From positions 1,984,001 through 2,048,000 of the forward strand of contig NZ_JAFBBQ010000001.1 of the NCBI RefSeq assembly GCF_016907255.1: 64,000 nucleotides of DNA, read 5' to 3'. Below are positions 2,915 to 26,087 of this stretch, in pieces. A model generated the notes under the pieces. It did not search any database, was not told where the DNA came from, and was given only the letters and a program-made list of their open reading frames with translations. Source of the stretch: Microbacterium keratanolyticum. Its GTDB lineage: Bacteria; Actinomycetota; Actinomycetes; Actinomycetales; Microbacteriaceae. The position numbers and the translations under genes were made by a program. The stretch's first letter is position 1. Each line of letters begins with the position of its first letter.

Positions 2915-4012
2915 CTATGGCTGCGTGGTGTGAGCGTTCAGGAAGTCGATGGTCTTCTGCAACGCGGTCTGCGCATCCGGCATGTCGAGGTGGAACTGGT
3001 ACTCGTGCGGCAGTGCAGGTTCGTGATCGGCGGGCCAGAACTGCGTCGTCAGATCGACGCCGAGCGCATCCAGGCGCTGGGCCATCGGGATCGACTGCAG
3101 CCAGGTGAGTCCGTCGCCGTTTCCACCGGAGATGTAGGTCGTGGGGAAGTCCTCGTTCACGAAGTCGATCGTCGACATCATCGCGCCGGTGGAGCCCACC
3201 GCCCAGTTCTTCGTGCCGCTGTACGCCCACATCGACGTCTTCAGCCCCCAACCCAGGATGCCGTCGAGTGCCGCGAGAGCCGAGAGGTCGTAGACGCCGC
3301 AGTTGAGAACGGTGGCGACGAGCTGGGATGACGTGAGCGCGGGCGTCATGTCCATCAGAGCGGCATAGTCGGGGTTCGTGACGATCGTTGCGACCTGGCT
3401 CGCGAGCTGTGCGCCAGCGGAATCTCCGGCAAGCACGATCTGCGAGGGATCGACGCCCAGGTCGTCGGCGTTGTCGACGATGTAGGCGAGCGCCTCGTTG
3501 ATCTGGTGAACGGCGAGGGGATAGACGCCCTCGGGCCCGCGCGTGTAGTCCACGGCGATCATCGTGTAGCCCTCGCCGGCGAGGATCTGCATGTACGGAT
3601 CGACGTCTTCCTTCGATCCGGAGATCCAGGCACCACCGTGGATCCACACCACGGTCGGGAGCGGCTCCGTGGCGGAGGCCGGGGTGAAGACATCCATCGT
3701 CGTATCGTCATCGCCGGTGAGTCCGTCGGAGCCGTAGGCGATGTCGCGCGTCGCCGTGACGGGCGTGTCGGGGACGTGCCGTTTCATCTCGGCCGCCGTC
3801 GCCTCACCGCCCTGTGTGAATACCGCGCGGATGAGCATCGCGGACGGCCAGGACGTGATCGATCCGACCAGAGCCACGATCACGCCGACCGCGAGGATCA
3901 CGCCGATCGTGATGCGGGTGCGATGCCACGGACGGTGCCGCTTCTTCGATGTCGTCGACGCCGGGGGAGCCGTGGACTCATCGTGCTGGGCGGTGTCTGC
4001 GGGGTTGGTCAT
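2915..4012 (-). CDS. membrane-anchored alpha/beta-hydrolase (esterase/lipase)
   Basis: 365 residues. A basic, proline-rich head is followed by one transmembrane helix at about 33-56 and then an alpha/beta-hydrolase domain. The oxyanion motif W-I-H-G-G-A-W and the nucleophile elbow G-D-S-A-G are intact, and W-P-A-D-H plus L-P-H-E-Y-Q near the C-terminus supply candidate acid and base residues. This is the HGG/GDSAG esterase (hormone-sensitive-lipase or BD-FAE) type; the substrate is unknown. An ideal GGAGGG ribosome site lies seven bases before the ATG at 4012, so the GTG five codons upstream is rejected. It probably acts at the outer face of the membrane. Confidence 0.85.
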   Translation of the reverse strand: MTNPADTAQHDESTAPPASTTSKKRHRPWHRTRITIGVILAVGVIVALVGSITSWPSAMLIRAVFTQGGEATAAEMKRHVPDTPVTATRDIAYGSDGLTGDDDTTMDVFTPASATEPLPTVVWIHGGAWISGSKEDVDPYMQILAGEGYTMIAVDYTRGPEGVYPLAVHQINEALAYIVDNADDLGVDPSQIVLAGDSAGAQLASQVATIVTNPDYAALMDMTPALTSSQLVATVLNCGVYDLSALAALDGILGWGLKTSMWAYSGTKNWAVGSTGAMMSTIDFVNEDFPTTYISGGNGDGLTWLQSIPMAQRLDALGVDLTTQFWPADHEPALPHEYQFHLDMPDAQTALQKTIDFLNAHTTQP

Positions 4013-4084
4013 CGTCCCTCCTCGCACTCAGTGTGGCAGGAGAGGCGTCGGTGAGGCCAGCACCAGTATTCCGGGGGCGACGGC

Positions 4085-18827: not shown

Positions 18828-18886
18828 TTCAAGGGACGATGTTCACCCTGTTTTCGCGGATTCTCGGGTGAACATCGCTCCTTGAA
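18828..18886. repeat. 59-base inverted repeat at the 3' end of the PaaX gene
   Basis: The arms 18828-18848 and 18866-18886 are complementary at 19 of 21 positions (outer TTCAAGG/CCTTGAA, inner GTTCACCC/GGGTGAAC), with a 17-base loop. The right arm, loop and innermost part of the left arm are coding sequence of the last PaaX codons; the stop is at 18843-18845. It can fold as a strong hairpin at the operon end, so it may be a terminator without T-run, or a binding site. It separates the kynurenine operon from the M18 gene. Confidence 0.7.
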
Positions 18887-19709
18887 CGGAGGAAGTGACC
18901 GCTCGCACGTGGCTCAGGGCGGGACCGGCCCAGCGTGACGACAGCTTCTCGAAGAGCGCGAAGCTGCGCATGCCGGGCCAATCGGCGGGAAGCAGAGACG
19001 ACGGCAGGCCGGGGTCGATGTAGGGCAGAACGCGCCAGCTGTCGATCAGGTGCACGTAGGAGTGAAAAGCCGTCCCGCTGTCGAGCGAATCGAGTGTGGA
19101 CTGAAATCGCTCGTGCTCGGCGCGCAAGGCGTCGAGGTCCCACCACTTCGTCACGGCCTCGGTGAGCGGTGTTCCCGGCCGTGGGTCTTGGGTGCGGAAG
19201 AGGGTCGCGAAGGCGCGAGCATCCAGCTCTTCCAGGATCTGCTCGACCTCGGCGGCGAGATGATCGGGGCAGGTCCAGAGTCCGGGCGCGACGGCGCCGC
19301 ATCCGATCCACTGCAGACGTCGTCGCAGCTGGTGGCGCAGGTCGCGTCGCGACTCCGGAACGGTGAACGACACGAGACACCACGGATCGCCGGCGCTCAT
19401 CTGCCGGATCTCGAAGATGCGGCGGTCGCCGCGTTCGAGCATCGGCAGAGCCGCAGGATTGAGCGCGTAGTCGCCCGCGTCCGTGAGCAGCAGCCCCTTC
19501 TGCTTCAGGCGCGTGATGCCGGTGCGGGCACGCGGTGCGGGAATGCCGGCATCGCCTGCAAGCCGCACGAGCGCTGGGGCGCTGATCCGACCGCCCAGCG
19601 GGCGCAGATAGAGGCCGATGATCGTGCGCAGCAGCGACGTCGTGCTGCCGGGACGGGCGTCGAGATCATCCAGCACCGCGGGCACCGGAGCGTCGTGGCT
19701 ATCGGGCAT
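18843..19709 (-). CDS. PaaX-family transcriptional regulator
   Basis: 288 residues. An N-terminal winged helix (L-L-R-T-I-I-G-L-Y-L-R-P-L-G-G-R-I-S-A-P-A-L-V-R-L) is followed by the PaaX central and C-terminal domains (P-W-C-L-V-S-F-T-V-P-E, G-L-W-T-C-P, R-V-L-P-Y-I-D-P-G-L-P, W-P-G). PaaX of E. coli represses phenylacetate genes and responds to phenylacetyl-CoA. Here it is the last gene of the kynurenine operon and its start lies 11 bases inside kynU, so it probably senses a pathway compound such as kynurenine or an anthranilate derivative. The ligand is inference. Confidence 0.88.
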   Translation of the reverse strand: MPDSHDAPVPAVLDDLDARPGSTTSLLRTIIGLYLRPLGGRISAPALVRLAGDAGIPAPRARTGITRLKQKGLLLTDAGDYALNPAALPMLERGDRRIFEIRQMSAGDPWCLVSFTVPESRRDLRHQLRRRLQWIGCGAVAPGLWTCPDHLAAEVEQILEELDARAFATLFRTQDPRPGTPLTEAVTKWWDLDALRAEHERFQSTLDSLDSGTAFHSYVHLIDSWRVLPYIDPGLPSSLLPADWPGMRSFALFEKLSSRWAGPALSHVRAVTSSVQGAMFTRESAKTG

Positions 19710-20928
19710 CAAGCGCCTCGCGCACGGCGAGCACACCGCGGGCGACTTCTTCGAACGAGGTGCTGAGCGGGGAGAGACCCAGGCGGATGCCGTCGGGGAA
19801 GCGGAAGTCCGGGATCACGCCGTCGGCCCAGAGTGTCTGGGTGACCTCGCGGAAGGAGGGGTGGCCGATCGTGACATGGCTGCCGCGTTGCGTGGCGTCC
19901 CTCGTGCTGAGCAGTCGCACACCGGCCGGTGCGAGCATCTCGTCGTAAGCGCGCACCGCGAAGTCGGTCAGGGCGATCGACTTCGCGCGCACCGCGTCGA
20001 TGCCGACGCTGTCGATGAGGTCGAGCATCCCCTGCATCGCGAGCATCGAGATGACCGGCGGAGTGCCGCTCAGCAGCTGGCGGATGTCGGCGGAGGGTGC
20101 GTACTCGGGGCCCATCGCGAAGATGTCAGCGGCGCCCCACCAGCCCTGGATCGGCTGGCGCAGCGTGCCGAGCAGCTCACGCCGCACATAGGCGAAGGCG
20201 GGGGAGCCGGGGCCGCCGTTGAGGTACTTGTAGGTGCATCCGACCGCGAGGTCGACGCCCCAGGCATCCAGCTGCATGGGGATCACGCCGACGGAGTGGC
20301 ACAGGTCCCACATCATCAGCGCACCCGCGTTCTTCACGGTCGCGGTGATCGCGGGCATGTCGGCGAGGGCGCCCGAGCGGTAGTCGACGTGGCTGAGGGC
20401 GACGAGCGCGGTGCGCTCGGAGAGGACGGATGCCACGTCTTCGGCCGTCACACCCCGCACTGCATCCGGCTCCAGCCAGCGCAGGGTCATGCCTGCTTCG
20501 GCAGCGACGCCCTCGGCGATGAAACGGTCAGTGGGGAAGTTGCCGCGCTCGATCACGATCTCGGTGCGGCTCGCGTGACGCCCCGCGGCGGCACGCATGA
20601 GCTTGTAGATGAGCACGCTCGTCGAGTCGGCGACGACCGTCTGGCCGGGCGCGGCGCCCAGCGCCACGGCGCCGATGCGGTCGCCGAGCACCATCGGCAG
20701 ATCCATCCACTGCTCATCCCATGAGCGGATCAGACGCGTGCCCCAGTCGTGGCGCACGAACGCGGCGATCTTCTCGGCGGTATCGCGGAGCGGGCGGCCG
20801 AGGGAGTTGCCGTCGAGGTACGCGTCGACCCCCGGTGCATCCGCGAAGGCAGCGAGATGCGGGTGCAGGGGATCAGCTGCGTCCAGAGCGCGGGCGTCGT
20901 CGAGCAGGGCAGTGGCGAGGGCGGTCAT
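19699..20928 (-). CDS. kynU: kynureninase
   Basis: 409 residues of the PLP-dependent aminotransferase-V fold. The cofactor lysine is Lys234 in C-T-Y-K-Y-L-N-G-G-P-G, with Asp208 and His211 in M-W-D-L-C-H-S-V-G and the substrate motif L-D-G-N-S-L-G-R-P at 38-46. It cleaves kynurenine to anthranilate and alanine. Its start overlaps the amidohydrolase stop by four bases and its end overlaps the PaaX gene, so all four genes are tightly coupled. Confidence 0.95.
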   Translation of the reverse strand: MTALATALLDDARALDAADPLHPHLAAFADAPGVDAYLDGNSLGRPLRDTAEKIAAFVRHDWGTRLIRSWDEQWMDLPMVLGDRIGAVALGAAPGQTVVADSTSVLIYKLMRAAAGRHASRTEIVIERGNFPTDRFIAEGVAAEAGMTLRWLEPDAVRGVTAEDVASVLSERTALVALSHVDYRSGALADMPAITATVKNAGALMMWDLCHSVGVIPMQLDAWGVDLAVGCTYKYLNGGPGSPAFAYVRRELLGTLRQPIQGWWGAADIFAMGPEYAPSADIRQLLSGTPPVISMLAMQGMLDLIDSVGIDAVRAKSIALTDFAVRAYDEMLAPAGVRLLSTRDATQRGSHVTIGHPSFREVTQTLWADGVIPDFRFPDGIRLGLSPLSTSFEEVARGVLAVREALDAR

Positions 20929-21908
20929 GGCAGCTCCACGGTGAGGGCGGTGACGAGGTCGGTCGGGGCGAGAGGTGCAGCAGTGAGGGGATCGAAGACG
21001 CCCGCTGCGGGCTGAGGGACGCGGAGCAGGACAGCACCGGGTGTCCGCGGGTCAACGGGGGCGAGTGTGGCGATGAGGGCTGCGCCGTCGATTCCGGCTG
21101 CGCGCATTGCCTCGACCTCTTCGGCGCGGAGGTCGATCGGGGTGGGGCCGTTGCCCATGTCGGTGCCGTAGAGCACGGTGCCGCCCACCGCGGCGAAGCG
21201 ACGGAGATTGTCGATCGCAATGGACAGCGGCTCGCCCTCGTGAATCGCGAGGGTCGTGATCCAGGCGGCGGATGCTGCCTGCCGTGCGATCTCGCCGTCG
21301 TCGAGTCGTTCGGTGAAGGGGGTGTGCACGAGGCCTGTCGCGCCGAGGCGCACCGCGCGCTCGGCTTCGCCAGGGCCCTCGGCGTGGGCGTAGACGGGGA
21401 TCCCATGCTCTGCTGCGGATGCGACGATCGCGGCGAACACGGCATCGTCGAACACGGGGCCTGCCTCGCTGTTGCTCATGACCTTGATGCAGGATGCTCC
21501 GGCATCGGCCATCTCGGCGACGGCGAGCGCTGCGGCATCCGCATCCGCGATCTCGCGCACCGAACCTTCTCGCGCCCACCAGCGGTCGGAGGGATAGCCG
21601 CCGGGAGGCGTGAGAAACGCCCCGGCGAAGTCGATCTGCACGGGGAGCTTCGGCGCCCATTCGCGCAGCCGGGCGAACGGTGCACCGAGGTCGAGAACGC
21701 GACCGAGCCGTGAGGAAGTGAGCGGAGAAGGGTCGACGAGCATCAGGTGCACGTGGTGGTCGGTGAAGCCGCCGACGATCGCGTGCGGGAAGCGCGGGAG
21801 CGAAGCATCCGGCGTCTCGTCGTGCACGACGGGGCGTCCCTCTTCGAGAGCCAGAACCCCCTCGCGCCAGGTCGTGCCGTCGAAATAGGTGGCAGCGGAC
21901 GAGGTCAT
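20925..21908 (-). CDS. amidohydrolase in the formamidase slot of the kynurenine operon
   Basis: 327 residues of the amidohydrolase superfamily. The metal site is complete: His52-x-His54 after F-T-D, Lys142 (S-C-I-K-V-M-S), His175 (Y-A-H-A-E-G), His195 (L-V-H-T-P-F) and Asp250 (Y-G-T-D-M-G-N-G). It is wedged between tryptophan 2,3-dioxygenase and kynureninase with ATGA overlaps on both sides. The step between those two enzymes is N-formylkynurenine deformylation, normally done by KynB or an alpha/beta-hydrolase, neither of which is in this operon. I infer that this enzyme may be the formamidase; an alternative is action on a side product. Confidence 0.85.
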   Translation of the reverse strand: MTSSAATYFDGTTWREGVLALEEGRPVVHDETPDASLPRFPHAIVGGFTDHHVHLMLVDPSPLTSSRLGRVLDLGAPFARLREWAPKLPVQIDFAGAFLTPPGGYPSDRWWAREGSVREIADADAAALAVAEMADAGASCIKVMSNSEAGPVFDDAVFAAIVASAAEHGIPVYAHAEGPGEAERAVRLGATGLVHTPFTERLDDGEIARQAASAAWITTLAIHEGEPLSIAIDNLRRFAAVGGTVLYGTDMGNGPTPIDLRAEEVEAMRAAGIDGAALIATLAPVDPRTPGAVLLRVPQPAAGVFDPLTAAPLAPTDLVTALTVELP

Positions 21909-22780
21909 GAGGCACCGATCTCCGTGCGCACCGAGTACAGCTCGGGGAAGAAGGTCAGCGACAGCGCGCGCTGCAGGAAGTCGACTCCGCTCGATCCGCC
22001 GGTGCCCTTCTTCATGCCGATCGTGCGGGTGACGGTGCGGAGGTGACGGAAGCGCCAGAACTGGAAGTTGTCCTCCACATCGACGAGCTCTTCGCACGCC
22101 TCGTACAGATCCCAGTGCTCGCGCGGGTTCTCGTAGATTTCGCGGATCACCGCAACCAGCTCCGGCGTCTCACGGTACGCCTCACGCACGTCGCGCTCCA
22201 GAATCGAGGGCGGAACCGGCAGGCCACGTCGCGCGACGAGGCGAAGGAACTCGTCGTAGAGGGTCGGGCGCTCCCACTCGGCGGTCAGCAGCGCGAGGTT
22301 TTCGGGGTGCGTCTTGAAGACGCTCAGCATCCGCTCGTTCTTGTTGCCGAGTGCGAACTCGACGGCCCGATACTGCACCGACTGGAAGCCGGAGGAGTTG
22401 CCCAGCTCGCCGCGGAACTCGGCGTACTCGGTGGGCGTGAGAGTCGCCAGCACCGACCACTGCTGCGTCAGCACCTCCTGGATGTGCTTGACGCGAGCGA
22501 CGTGCTTCAGTGCGGCGCGCAGATCATCGTCGGCCAGACGATCGCGGGCGGTGCCGAGCTCGTGCAGCACGAGTTTCAGCCACAGCTCGGTGGTCTGGTG
22601 CTGAATGATGAACAGCATCTCGTCGTGGTGCTCGGGGGAGCTGACCGGATGCTGCGCCGAGAGCAGCCGGTCGAGGTCGAGGTAGCCGCCATAGGTCATG
22701 CGGTCGCGAAGGTCGGTGACGATTCCCTCTTCGAGGGCGCGTTCGTTGCCCGTGGTCGTCGGCTCGGCTTCACTGCTCAT
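21905..22780 (-). CDS. kynA: tryptophan 2,3-dioxygenase
   Basis: 291 residues, matching bacterial heme-dependent TDO. Motifs include M-T-Y-G-G-Y-L-D-L-D-R-L-L, H-H-D-E-M-L-F-I-I-Q-H-Q-T-T-E-L-W (active-site His and Arg region), S-S-G-F-Q-S-V-Q-Y-R and the heme-ligand His246 in F-R-H-L-R-T-V-T-R-T-I-G, then K-G-T-G-G-S-S-G-V-D. It opens the indole ring of tryptophan to N-formylkynurenine and is the first gene of the operon. No ribosome site is present; a well-formed promoter places the message start at the ATG. Confidence 0.96.
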   Translation of the reverse strand: MSSEAEPTTTGNERALEEGIVTDLRDRMTYGGYLDLDRLLSAQHPVSSPEHHDEMLFIIQHQTTELWLKLVLHELGTARDRLADDDLRAALKHVARVKHIQEVLTQQWSVLATLTPTEYAEFRGELGNSSGFQSVQYRAVEFALGNKNERMLSVFKTHPENLALLTAEWERPTLYDEFLRLVARRGLPVPPSILERDVREAYRETPELVAVIREIYENPREHWDLYEACEELVDVEDNFQFWRFRHLRTVTRTIGMKKGTGGSSGVDFLQRALSLTFFPELYSVRTEIGAS

Positions 22781-22815: not shown

Positions 22816-22964
22816 GATATGAAATGAATGCGGCGGCTGTGACGGGGGGGTCTGTGTCTCTGTGTGACCCTCGATGAAGCGGCATGTCGACCCCAGATGA
22901 CGCCGCGCGCTGCGACGCGGATTCTTGGTAGCACACCAACGCTGCCATCACCGTGAGGAGTGCC

Positions 22965-23864
22965 ATGACCGTCCTGTCTTCCGGTGCGCCGCGGTGCGCG
23001 AATCTCATCTCGCCACAGGAGCTCGCGGCGGCGCAGGAGGCCGCGGCGAACGGAACCGGGCCGACGGTTCGCCTTCTGGACGTGCGGTGGCGCTTGGACC
23101 GCCCGGAAGGCCGGCCGGAGTATCTGCGCGCGCACCTGCCGGGAGCGGTCTACGTCGACCTCGACCACGAACTCGCTCGCAAGGGCGATCCGGCAGAGGG
23201 GCGGCATCCGATCCCTCTTCTCGACGACCTGCAGCGATCCGTGCGGGGATGGGGCGTGAACGAGGGGGATCTTCTCGTCGCGTACGACGACATCCGCAGC
23301 GTCGCCGCCGCCCGACTGTGGTGGCTCCTCTCCCGCGCGGGAGTCGCTGTGCGCGTGCTGGATGGAGGGCTGCGGGCATGGATCGGCGCCGGCTTCGGCC
23401 TGGAGAGCGGCGACGTGCGACCGGTCGCCGGCGCCATCACGCTCTCGAGCTTCGACTCCGGGGTGCTGACGATCGATCAGGCGGCGGTGTTCCCGGCGGA
23501 CGGGGTGCTGCTCGATGTGCGCTCTCCTGAGCAGTACCGGGGGGACCGGGCGCCGCTCGATCCGGTGGGAGGGCACATCCCCGGAGCCGTCAACCTGCCG
23601 ACGATGGCGCATGTCGCCGACGACGGTCGCCTGCACGCACCCGACGTCCTGCGCCGCATCTTCCAGACCGCGGGAGTCACAGAGAAGATCTCCGTCGGGG
23701 TGTACTGCGGATCCGGGATCGCCGCGTCGCACACGGCGCTGGCGCTCGCCGAGGCGGGAATCGCCGCACGCGTCTTTCCCGGTTCGTGGAGCCAGTGGTC
23801 GAACACGAAGGGGCGGCCCGTCGCCGTGGGCATCCTGCCGAGCGGCCGCATCGAGGCGGTGTGA
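22965..23864 (+). CDS. sseA: sulfurtransferase with tandem rhodanese domains (SseA-like)
   Basis: 299 residues, two rhodanese domains at about 18-145 and 165-295. The first lacks a catalytic cysteine; the second has it in V-Y-C-G-S-G-I-A-A. The C-G-S-G loop is that of 3-mercaptopyruvate sulfurtransferases rather than the C-R-K-G loop of thiosulfate-specific enzymes. It transfers sulfane sulfur from 3-mercaptopyruvate to thiols or cyanide in the cytosol. A GAGGAG site lies about six bases before the ATG at 22965, so the upstream ATG is rejected. Confidence 0.9.
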   Translation: MTVLSSGAPRCANLISPQELAAAQEAAANGTGPTVRLLDVRWRLDRPEGRPEYLRAHLPGAVYVDLDHELARKGDPAEGRHPIPLLDDLQRSVRGWGVNEGDLLVAYDDIRSVAAARLWWLLSRAGVAVRVLDGGLRAWIGAGFGLESGDVRPVAGAITLSSFDSGVLTIDQAAVFPADGVLLDVRSPEQYRGDRAPLDPVGGHIPGAVNLPTMAHVADDGRLHAPDVLRRIFQTAGVTEKISVGVYCGSGIAASHTALALAEAGIAARVFPGSWSQWSNTKGRPVAVGILPSGRIEAV

Positions 23865-25227: not shown

Positions 25228-25345
25228 GACTTCCCCCTTCGTGGGCGACGATCGCGCTCCTCGGAGCGGATGCCGCGTCGATGTGTGGTCAGTGTAGTGG
25301 TCGTCGGACGAGCCGCTTCAGGCGTTGTGCACACGCTGCCGTCAG

Positions 25346-25351
25346 TAGGGT
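25346..25351 (+). promoter_or_regulatory. -10 element TAGGGT, leaderless start
   Basis: TAGGGT ends seven bases before the ATG at 25359, and that ATG has no ribosome site. The rest of the 131-base gap shows nothing else I can name. Confidence 0.45.
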
Positions 25352-25358
25352 GGGTCGC

Positions 25359-26087
25359 ATGGGAGACTCTGGCCTTCGCGTGCGCACCTTCGGTGATCCC
25401 AGCGGTGAGCCGCTGCTGCTCCTGCACGGCGGTGGCGTGGCTGGATGGATGTGGAATCCGCTCCTCGAGCACCTCGATCCGCGCTTCCACGTCATCGTGC
25501 CCGACCTGCCTGGTCACGACGTCGACTCCGACGAGCACTATCGCTCCCACGTGGCGACGATCGAGGCGCTGGCGCCGCTGCTCGCACCGGGGACGACGGT
25601 CGTCGGCTTCTCGCTCGGCGCCCAGCTCGCGGTGCTGCTGGCCGCGCAGCATCCGGATCTCGTCGCCCGTGTCGTCGTGATCAGCGCGCAGACGATCCCG
25701 ACCCGCGCGCCTGGCGCCACGCTCGCAATGCTCAGAGCCGCCGCGCCCCTCGCCCGCTACGAGTGGTTCGCGCGCCTGCAGGCGAAGGAGCTCTTCGTCC
25801 CCGACACCCTGATCGACGAGTATCTGCGCACCTCGCGCCGCATCTCCGTGGAGACGCTCACGCACGCGGTCGGCGAGAACATCCGCTTCACGATCCCGGA
25901 AGGCTGGGCGCAGTTCCCGGGAATGGCCGTGATCCTCGCCGGATCCCGCGAGAAGGCAGTGATGCGCGCCTCCGCCTGGCGGCTGCACGAGGCTCTTCCG
26001 GGCAGTGAGTTCGCACTCGTCGCCGACTGCGGCCACGGCATCCCTCTGCAGAAGCCCGAAGGGCTCGCGCAGATGCTGAACGGCTGA
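25359..26087 (+). CDS. alpha/beta-hydrolase
   Basis: 242 residues of the alpha/beta-hydrolase fold. The oxyanion region L-L-L-L-H-G-G-G, the nucleophile elbow G-F-S-L-G-A (Ser), the Asp region before the last strand and the final His in D-C-G-H-G-I-P form the usual set. No lid domain is obvious beyond a short helical insert. The substrate is unknown. It faces the HutC-type regulator gene tail to tail with only three bases between the stops. Confidence 0.85.
   Translation: MGDSGLRVRTFGDPSGEPLLLLHGGGVAGWMWNPLLEHLDPRFHVIVPDLPGHDVDSDEHYRSHVATIEALAPLLAPGTTVVGFSLGAQLAVLLAAQHPDLVARVVVISAQTIPTRAPGATLAMLRAAAPLARYEWFARLQAKELFVPDTLIDEYLRTSRRISVETLTHAVGENIRFTIPEGWAQFPGMAVILAGSREKAVMRASAWRLHEALPGSEFALVADCGHGIPLQKPEGLAQMLNG

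Follow-up and report, generated by a model that had tools for sequence, protein, structure and literature searches.

The window analysed here, a stretch of 64,000 nucleotides, comes from a single-contig genome of 3.07 Mb (G000), and its named relatives are Microbacterium. On its minus strand, from position 22780 to 18843, it carries kynA, a gene for an amidohydrolase-superfamily protein (hereafter AH), kynU and a gene for a PaaX-type regulator, in this order. An earlier note, made from the letters alone, had proposed that AH takes the place of the kynurenine formamidase, and the genomic evidence gathered here supports AH as a candidate for a third class of this enzyme. The four genes are:

21905..22780, minus strand: kynA, tryptophan 2,3-dioxygenase (TDO) of 291 residues, which makes N-formylkynurenine (PF03301, 217 bits; TIGR03036)
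20925..21908, minus strand: AH, amidohydrolase-superfamily protein of 327 residues, proposed N-formylkynurenine formamidase (metal residues, barrel model, linkage to kynA)
19699..20928, minus strand: kynU, kynureninase of 409 residues (Pfam KYNU_C, 87.3 bits against a cut-off of 27)
18843..19736, minus strand: PaaX-family regulator of 297 residues, overlapping the end of kynU (three PaaX Pfam domains above cut-off)

Profile matches bear out the operon content given in the earlier note, with kynA scoring 390.8 bits against TIGR03036 (cut-off 390.7) and kynU 237.5 bits against TIGR01814, slightly below the cut-off of 246.4; TDO and KYNU_C each have a single match in the whole genome. The ATGA overlaps of four bases that the note had reported are present at both the kynA/AH and the AH/kynU joint, each of which reads CATGAC, and they are not general, as a four-base overlap occurs at 19 of 78 kynA/AH joints and 17 of 68 AH/kynU joints of related loci. 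The frame of AH is open on the minus strand for 327 residues from the ATG at 21908, and the listing of open reading frames starts a longer frame at the GTG at 22097. The PaaX-family protein is a possible regulator of the kynA-AH-kynU operon; we know of no description of a PaaX-type regulator for a kynurenine operon, no search having been aimed at one.

The amidohydrolase superfamily is recognised by a ligand pattern of HxH, Lys, His, His and Asp, and AH has the complete metal site that had been claimed for it: H52, H54, K142, H175, H195 and D250 are all present, are invariant across 24 aligned sequences and are kept in 49 of 50 aligned relatives, the exception being L215, where D250 is replaced by N. 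The 24 sequences were taken from 35 loci after leaving out L009 and L018 (doubts about frameshift or start), L016 (no usable start), L008 (identical to the window) and, for the remainder, near-duplicates. The predicted model of AH (pLDDT 92.7) is the (beta/alpha)8 metal-dependent hydrolase barrel of this superfamily, and in structure comparison it aligns with such barrels across nearly its full length. AH scores above no Pfam or NCBIfam cut-off, the nearest being Amidohydro_1 at 23.7 bits against 25, and at E<=0.1 it matches neither the KynB families PF04199 and TIGR03035 nor the Pfam families of alpha/beta-hydrolases, the fold that in Afmid/KFase goes together with an HGG motif and a Ser-His-Asp triad. 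As judged from sequence and predicted fold, AH thus belongs to neither known class of formamidase. Its relatives are labelled in their sources as 'hydrolase', 'amidohydrolase family protein', 'imidazolonepropionase-like amidohydrolase' or 'hypothetical protein'.

The linkage of AH to the pathway was followed in 249 genomes of the window's family, taken as Microbacteriaceae, which were searched with AH, TDO, the kynureninase C-terminal domain, PF04199, TIGR03035 and one Afmid-like protein. A strong AH match, defined as at least 50 bits, which dropped three (G007, G101 and G203, 26-28 bits) of 76 genomes, was found in 73 genomes, 61 of them also with kynA, and in all 61 AH lies on the same strand as kynA and within 4 kb of it. 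The co-occurrence of the two genes has an odds ratio of 31 (p 1e-25), computed on genomes that kinship makes non-independent. A gene-neighbourhood survey, which the earlier note had suggested, agrees: among the best 80 of 439 stretches found in a collection of 84,980 species, a choice that favours close relatives in the counts, kynA lies upstream of AH in 78, kynU downstream in 68 and a PaaX gene after kynU in 49. Given that 61 of 61 family genomes and 78 of the 80 best relatives show the linkage, the kynA-AH arrangement is far beyond chance. In addition, an order-level sample of 248 genomes holds strong AH relatives in six genomes of other families, arranged as kynA-AH-kynU in four and as AH-kynU in two.

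Presence of kynB or of an Afmid-type gene at another site in the genome had been named in the earlier note as grounds for refuting its proposal, and a protein of either kind is rejected here, since the 3.07 Mb genome holds no match to PF04199, to TIGR03035 or, at E<=1e-5, to the operon-linked Afmid-like query. Seven PF07859 matches are present in this genome, of which only that at window positions 2915-4027 was looked at closely. In the family, KynB exceeds the TIGR03035 cut-off in one of the 249 genomes (G019), where a KynB-like gene adjoins a kynU of a different group (support 94/79), as it does with weaker two-piece matches in G158 and G073; these three genomes have no AH and no TIGR03036 kynA.

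Sister operons without AH serve as a control that goes beyond the earlier note, for they carry an Afmid-like gene instead. There are 25 family genomes with kynA and no AH: 16 small ones (0.7-1.7 Mb), whose diverged kynA scores 169-258 bits, and nine with the usual kynA of at least 380 bits. Eight of the nine have an Afmid-like hydrolase of at least 50 bits, a threshold chosen after the data had been seen, in a survey with a single query (L043, from G026). The gene adjoins kynA and/or kynU in six of them (G026, G066, G093, G116, G155 and G205) and is unlinked in two (G009 and G138). None of the 61 genomes with AH and kynA has such a match, when the background among genomes lacking kynA (19 of 163) predicts about seven; the chance of finding none is about 5e-4 if the genomes are assumed independent, and Fisher's test of exclusivity between AH and the Afmid-like gene among 70 genomes gives p 1e-9. 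The Afmid-like proteins are alpha/beta-hydrolases (PF20434/PF07859) with the motifs GHSAGG and HGG(F/Y)W, the latter as HGGYY in L052 and HGGYF in L187. The query L043 matches the solved kynurenine formamidase 4e11 at E 2e-4, ranked behind many esterases, and is thus to be called Afmid-like rather than proven.

The phylogeny of KynU adds weight to this exchange. In a tree of 54 of 56 chosen loci, from which rows shorter than 330 or longer than 480 residues or lacking kynU were dropped, the six rows with an operon-borne Afmid-like gene form one clade (99/96) inside a supported group of 48 rows (97/95) that also holds 35 AH-linked rows, and the tree leaves the branching order inside this group unsettled. 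A further row labelled Afmid, L175 (G132), falls in none of the groups and forms a very long branch by itself. The KynU of G138, a genome with kynA-kynU-PaaX but no AH and with an Afmid-type protein elsewhere, is sister to the KynU of the AH-bearing G075 (99/97), and the absence of AH from G138 is presumably due to loss. Kynureninases of a single lineage thus act downstream of AH in some operons and of an Afmid-like enzyme in others. This favours the view that kynurenine is the product of both, and the pattern is what non-orthologous displacement of the formamidase would be expected to leave.

We consider it probable, on these genomic grounds, that AH is the kynurenine formamidase (EC 3.5.1.9) of the operon and that it represents a third, non-homologous class of this enzyme built on the amidohydrolase-superfamily barrel. 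In the mechanism that we propose, H52 and H54 (the HxH motif), a carbamylated, bridging K142, H175 and H195 would coordinate one or two divalent metal ions, D250 would activate a metal-bound water, and this water would attack the formyl carbon of N-formyl-L-kynurenine, so that formate and L-kynurenine would be released and the latter passed to KynU. What the analysis shows directly is gene content and order, residue conservation, the predicted fold, the linkage and the replacement by an Afmid-like gene; which metal AH contains, what it acts on, what it makes and how it is regulated are deduced from what is generally known of the superfamily and the pathway. If the proposal is true, a third enzyme class fills the formamidase step in many actinobacterial genomes, and the locus clearly exemplifies how non-orthologous displacement can take place within a single operon.

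Several observations weigh against this assignment. A PF04199 protein of some kind is present in 41 of the 61 genomes with AH and kynA, none above the KynB cut-off, so that the absence of KynB from these genomes rests on the curated cut-off. The Fisher value overstates the exclusivity, because it reflects by our estimate about four independent events and the threshold was set post hoc. A survey with one Afmid-like query could overlook other alpha/beta-hydrolases capable of the step. Of the eight Afmid matches, three lie near the threshold (55-61 bits; G009, G066 and G138); 11 of the 61 genomes with AH and kynA give weak matches of 26-36 bits, and G084 has kynA, no AH and an Afmid match of 29 bits only. 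Finally, 12 of the 73 genomes with strong AH have no kynA: in eight AH adjoins kynU and in four, all of genus g35, neither gene is near it, which puts the source of the substrate in question.

The absence of kynA from these 12 genomes could also mean that AH acts on another compound of the tryptophan/kynurenine pathway and leaves N-formylkynurenine to be deformylated by a hydrolase that is promiscuous or has escaped recognition. The 16 small genomes with diverged kynA point the same way, as they have no AH, no Afmid-like protein of at least 50 bits and no KynB above cut-off, and unrecognised solutions to the formamidase step thus probably exist; small genome size alone is not the cause of the absence of AH, since seven genomes of 1.5-1.8 Mb have both AH and the usual kynA. 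This explanation nevertheless leaves the mutual replacement of AH and the Afmid-like gene in the same operon unaccounted for, and we regard it as improbable.

In four loci read from the small genomes, L048 (G067), L049 (G013), L050 (G104) and L051 (G010), kynU lies near kynA. A patatin-like gene stands between the two in G013 (L049, 5769-6620), and genes nearby in L049 and L051 resemble, as judged by eye, one-carbon enzymes.

Kynureninases can act on formylkynurenine, and KynU might accordingly cleave N-formylkynurenine first, leaving AH to deformylate N-formylanthranilate. AH would then still be a deformylase, and the linkage to be expected would be identical. However, KynU of the same group works beside the Afmid-like gene, whose class is known, in the portions of the literature covered, for N-formylkynurenine itself, and the exchange of AH with that gene is most simply explained by one common substrate. 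We would give this order of reactions little credence.

It is similarly doubtful that a serine hydrolase carries out the deformylation while AH has some other role in the pathway. The foremost candidate is the alpha/beta-hydrolase of 370 residues at window positions 2915-4027, whose relatives (64-75% identical) occur upstream of kynA and on the same strand in 13 of the 80 loci (up to about 300 bases from kynA in 12, about 1.6 kb in one), which counts against AH as the formamidase. On the other hand, no such relative was found upstream in the remaining 65 kynA loci, although for some of them little upstream DNA was available, and in the window genome some 18 kb separate the gene from the operon. 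Among proteins of solved structure, those most similar to it are esterases and lipases, and no kynurenine formamidase is among the best 60 of 163. In addition, an N-terminal hydrophobic segment following a basic stretch suggests a membrane-anchored protein with an extracytoplasmic domain. Two further neighbours, the alpha/beta-hydrolase at 25281-26087 and the rhodanese at 22953-23864, were rejected as pathway members, each having a counterpart in 0 of the 80 related loci at E<=1e-10.

As the formamidase of the operon, AH would join a step for which two different, nonorthologous enzymes were already described in the part of a 2014 study of pathway evolution that deals with it (PMC4217691). It would share with KynB (PF04199/TIGR03035; PDB 4COB, 4COG and 4CO9) the proposed reaction and metal-dependent hydrolysis, but KynB has a cyclase-family sequence and AH matches neither of its families. 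The available text of the KynB study describes that enzyme as unrelated by sequence to the eukaryotic one and to any known amidase or amidohydrolase, and its authors note that the binuclear zinc centre recalls amidohydrolase-superfamily sites while the fold differs (PMC4243253). With the arylformamidase Afmid/BNA7/KFase, AH would likewise have the reaction in common, as well as the place in the operon, which an Afmid-like gene holds in six relatives lacking AH; that enzyme is an alpha/beta-hydrolase, whereas AH is a predicted metal-dependent barrel.

Among the structural matches of AH are the arginine carboxypeptidases 3be7/3mtw, Xaa-Pro dipeptidase 2qs8, prolidase 3n2c, ochratoxin A amidohydrolases 8ihq/8yak and ochratoxinase 4c5y, which we take to be cog1228-type amidohydrolases. 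They are 16-21% identical to AH, which is about 70-110 residues shorter, and the results gathered here contain no kynurenine-pathway role for them.

A precedent in the literature is MymD/MyeD of the mycemycin clusters, a protein of 513 residues called an amidohydrolase, for which hydrolysis of N-formylkynurenine between TDO and kynureninase was proposed; in the sections of that report covered here, MymD was insoluble and the proposal came without an assay (PMC5867642). We rejected it as the same enzyme as AH, given the difference in size (513 against 327 residues) and the fact that activity of MymD was not demonstrated in those sections; it also belongs to a biosynthetic cluster, and the two are set apart by length and description, their sequences not having been compared. 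CbxE, which is presumably a relative of MymD, belongs to caboxamycin formation. The relevant extracts on caboxamycin call this amidohydrolase essential and take the pathway to start from chorismate (PMC5481532). Among open-licence papers, to which the search was confined, we found no N-formylkynurenine formamidase of the AH family.

Relatives of AH extend beyond the family: of 236 genomes searched across the phylum, 47 encode one at E<=1e-20, and 20 loci were read from these 47. A kynureninase-like gene lies within 2 kb of the AH relative in seven of the 20 loci, and the three of these neighbours that were scanned match TIGR01814 best (98-115 bits, cut-off 246) and exceed the cut-off of KYNU_C. 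No kynA match was found in any of the 20, within the stretches read. TDO is encoded somewhere in the genome for 10 of 20 genomes searched, which share 15 with those read and several of which are incomplete, and the ten without it weigh against assuming that these deeper proteins share the activity. In the AH tree, the 30 rows from kyn loci, two g35 rows included, lie on one side of a branch supported at 100/100. We might speculate that much of Actinomycetota relies on AH as its standard N-formylkynurenine formamidase, an enzyme older than the window's family and swapped several times for an Afmid-like enzyme, that AH-KynU pairs without TDO scavenge external N-formylkynurenine, and that the deep relatives near a kynureninase share the activity; such a broad scenario is possible, though we lean against it.

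AH-kynU pairs with no kynA in the locus were seen in L056, L057, L058, L128, L140, L165 and L166, and among such pairs the genomes of g5 and g36 lack kynA altogether; the arrangement suggests uptake of N-formylkynurenine or another first step. In L165 a gene for a luciferase-like monooxygenase stands ahead of the pair. In the deep loci L199, L200, L201, L203 and L218, the AH relatives lie next to or near an apparent uvrB, recognised by eye from the starts of the open reading frames, and a gene of the kynureninase family of pyridoxal-phosphate enzymes is often close by.
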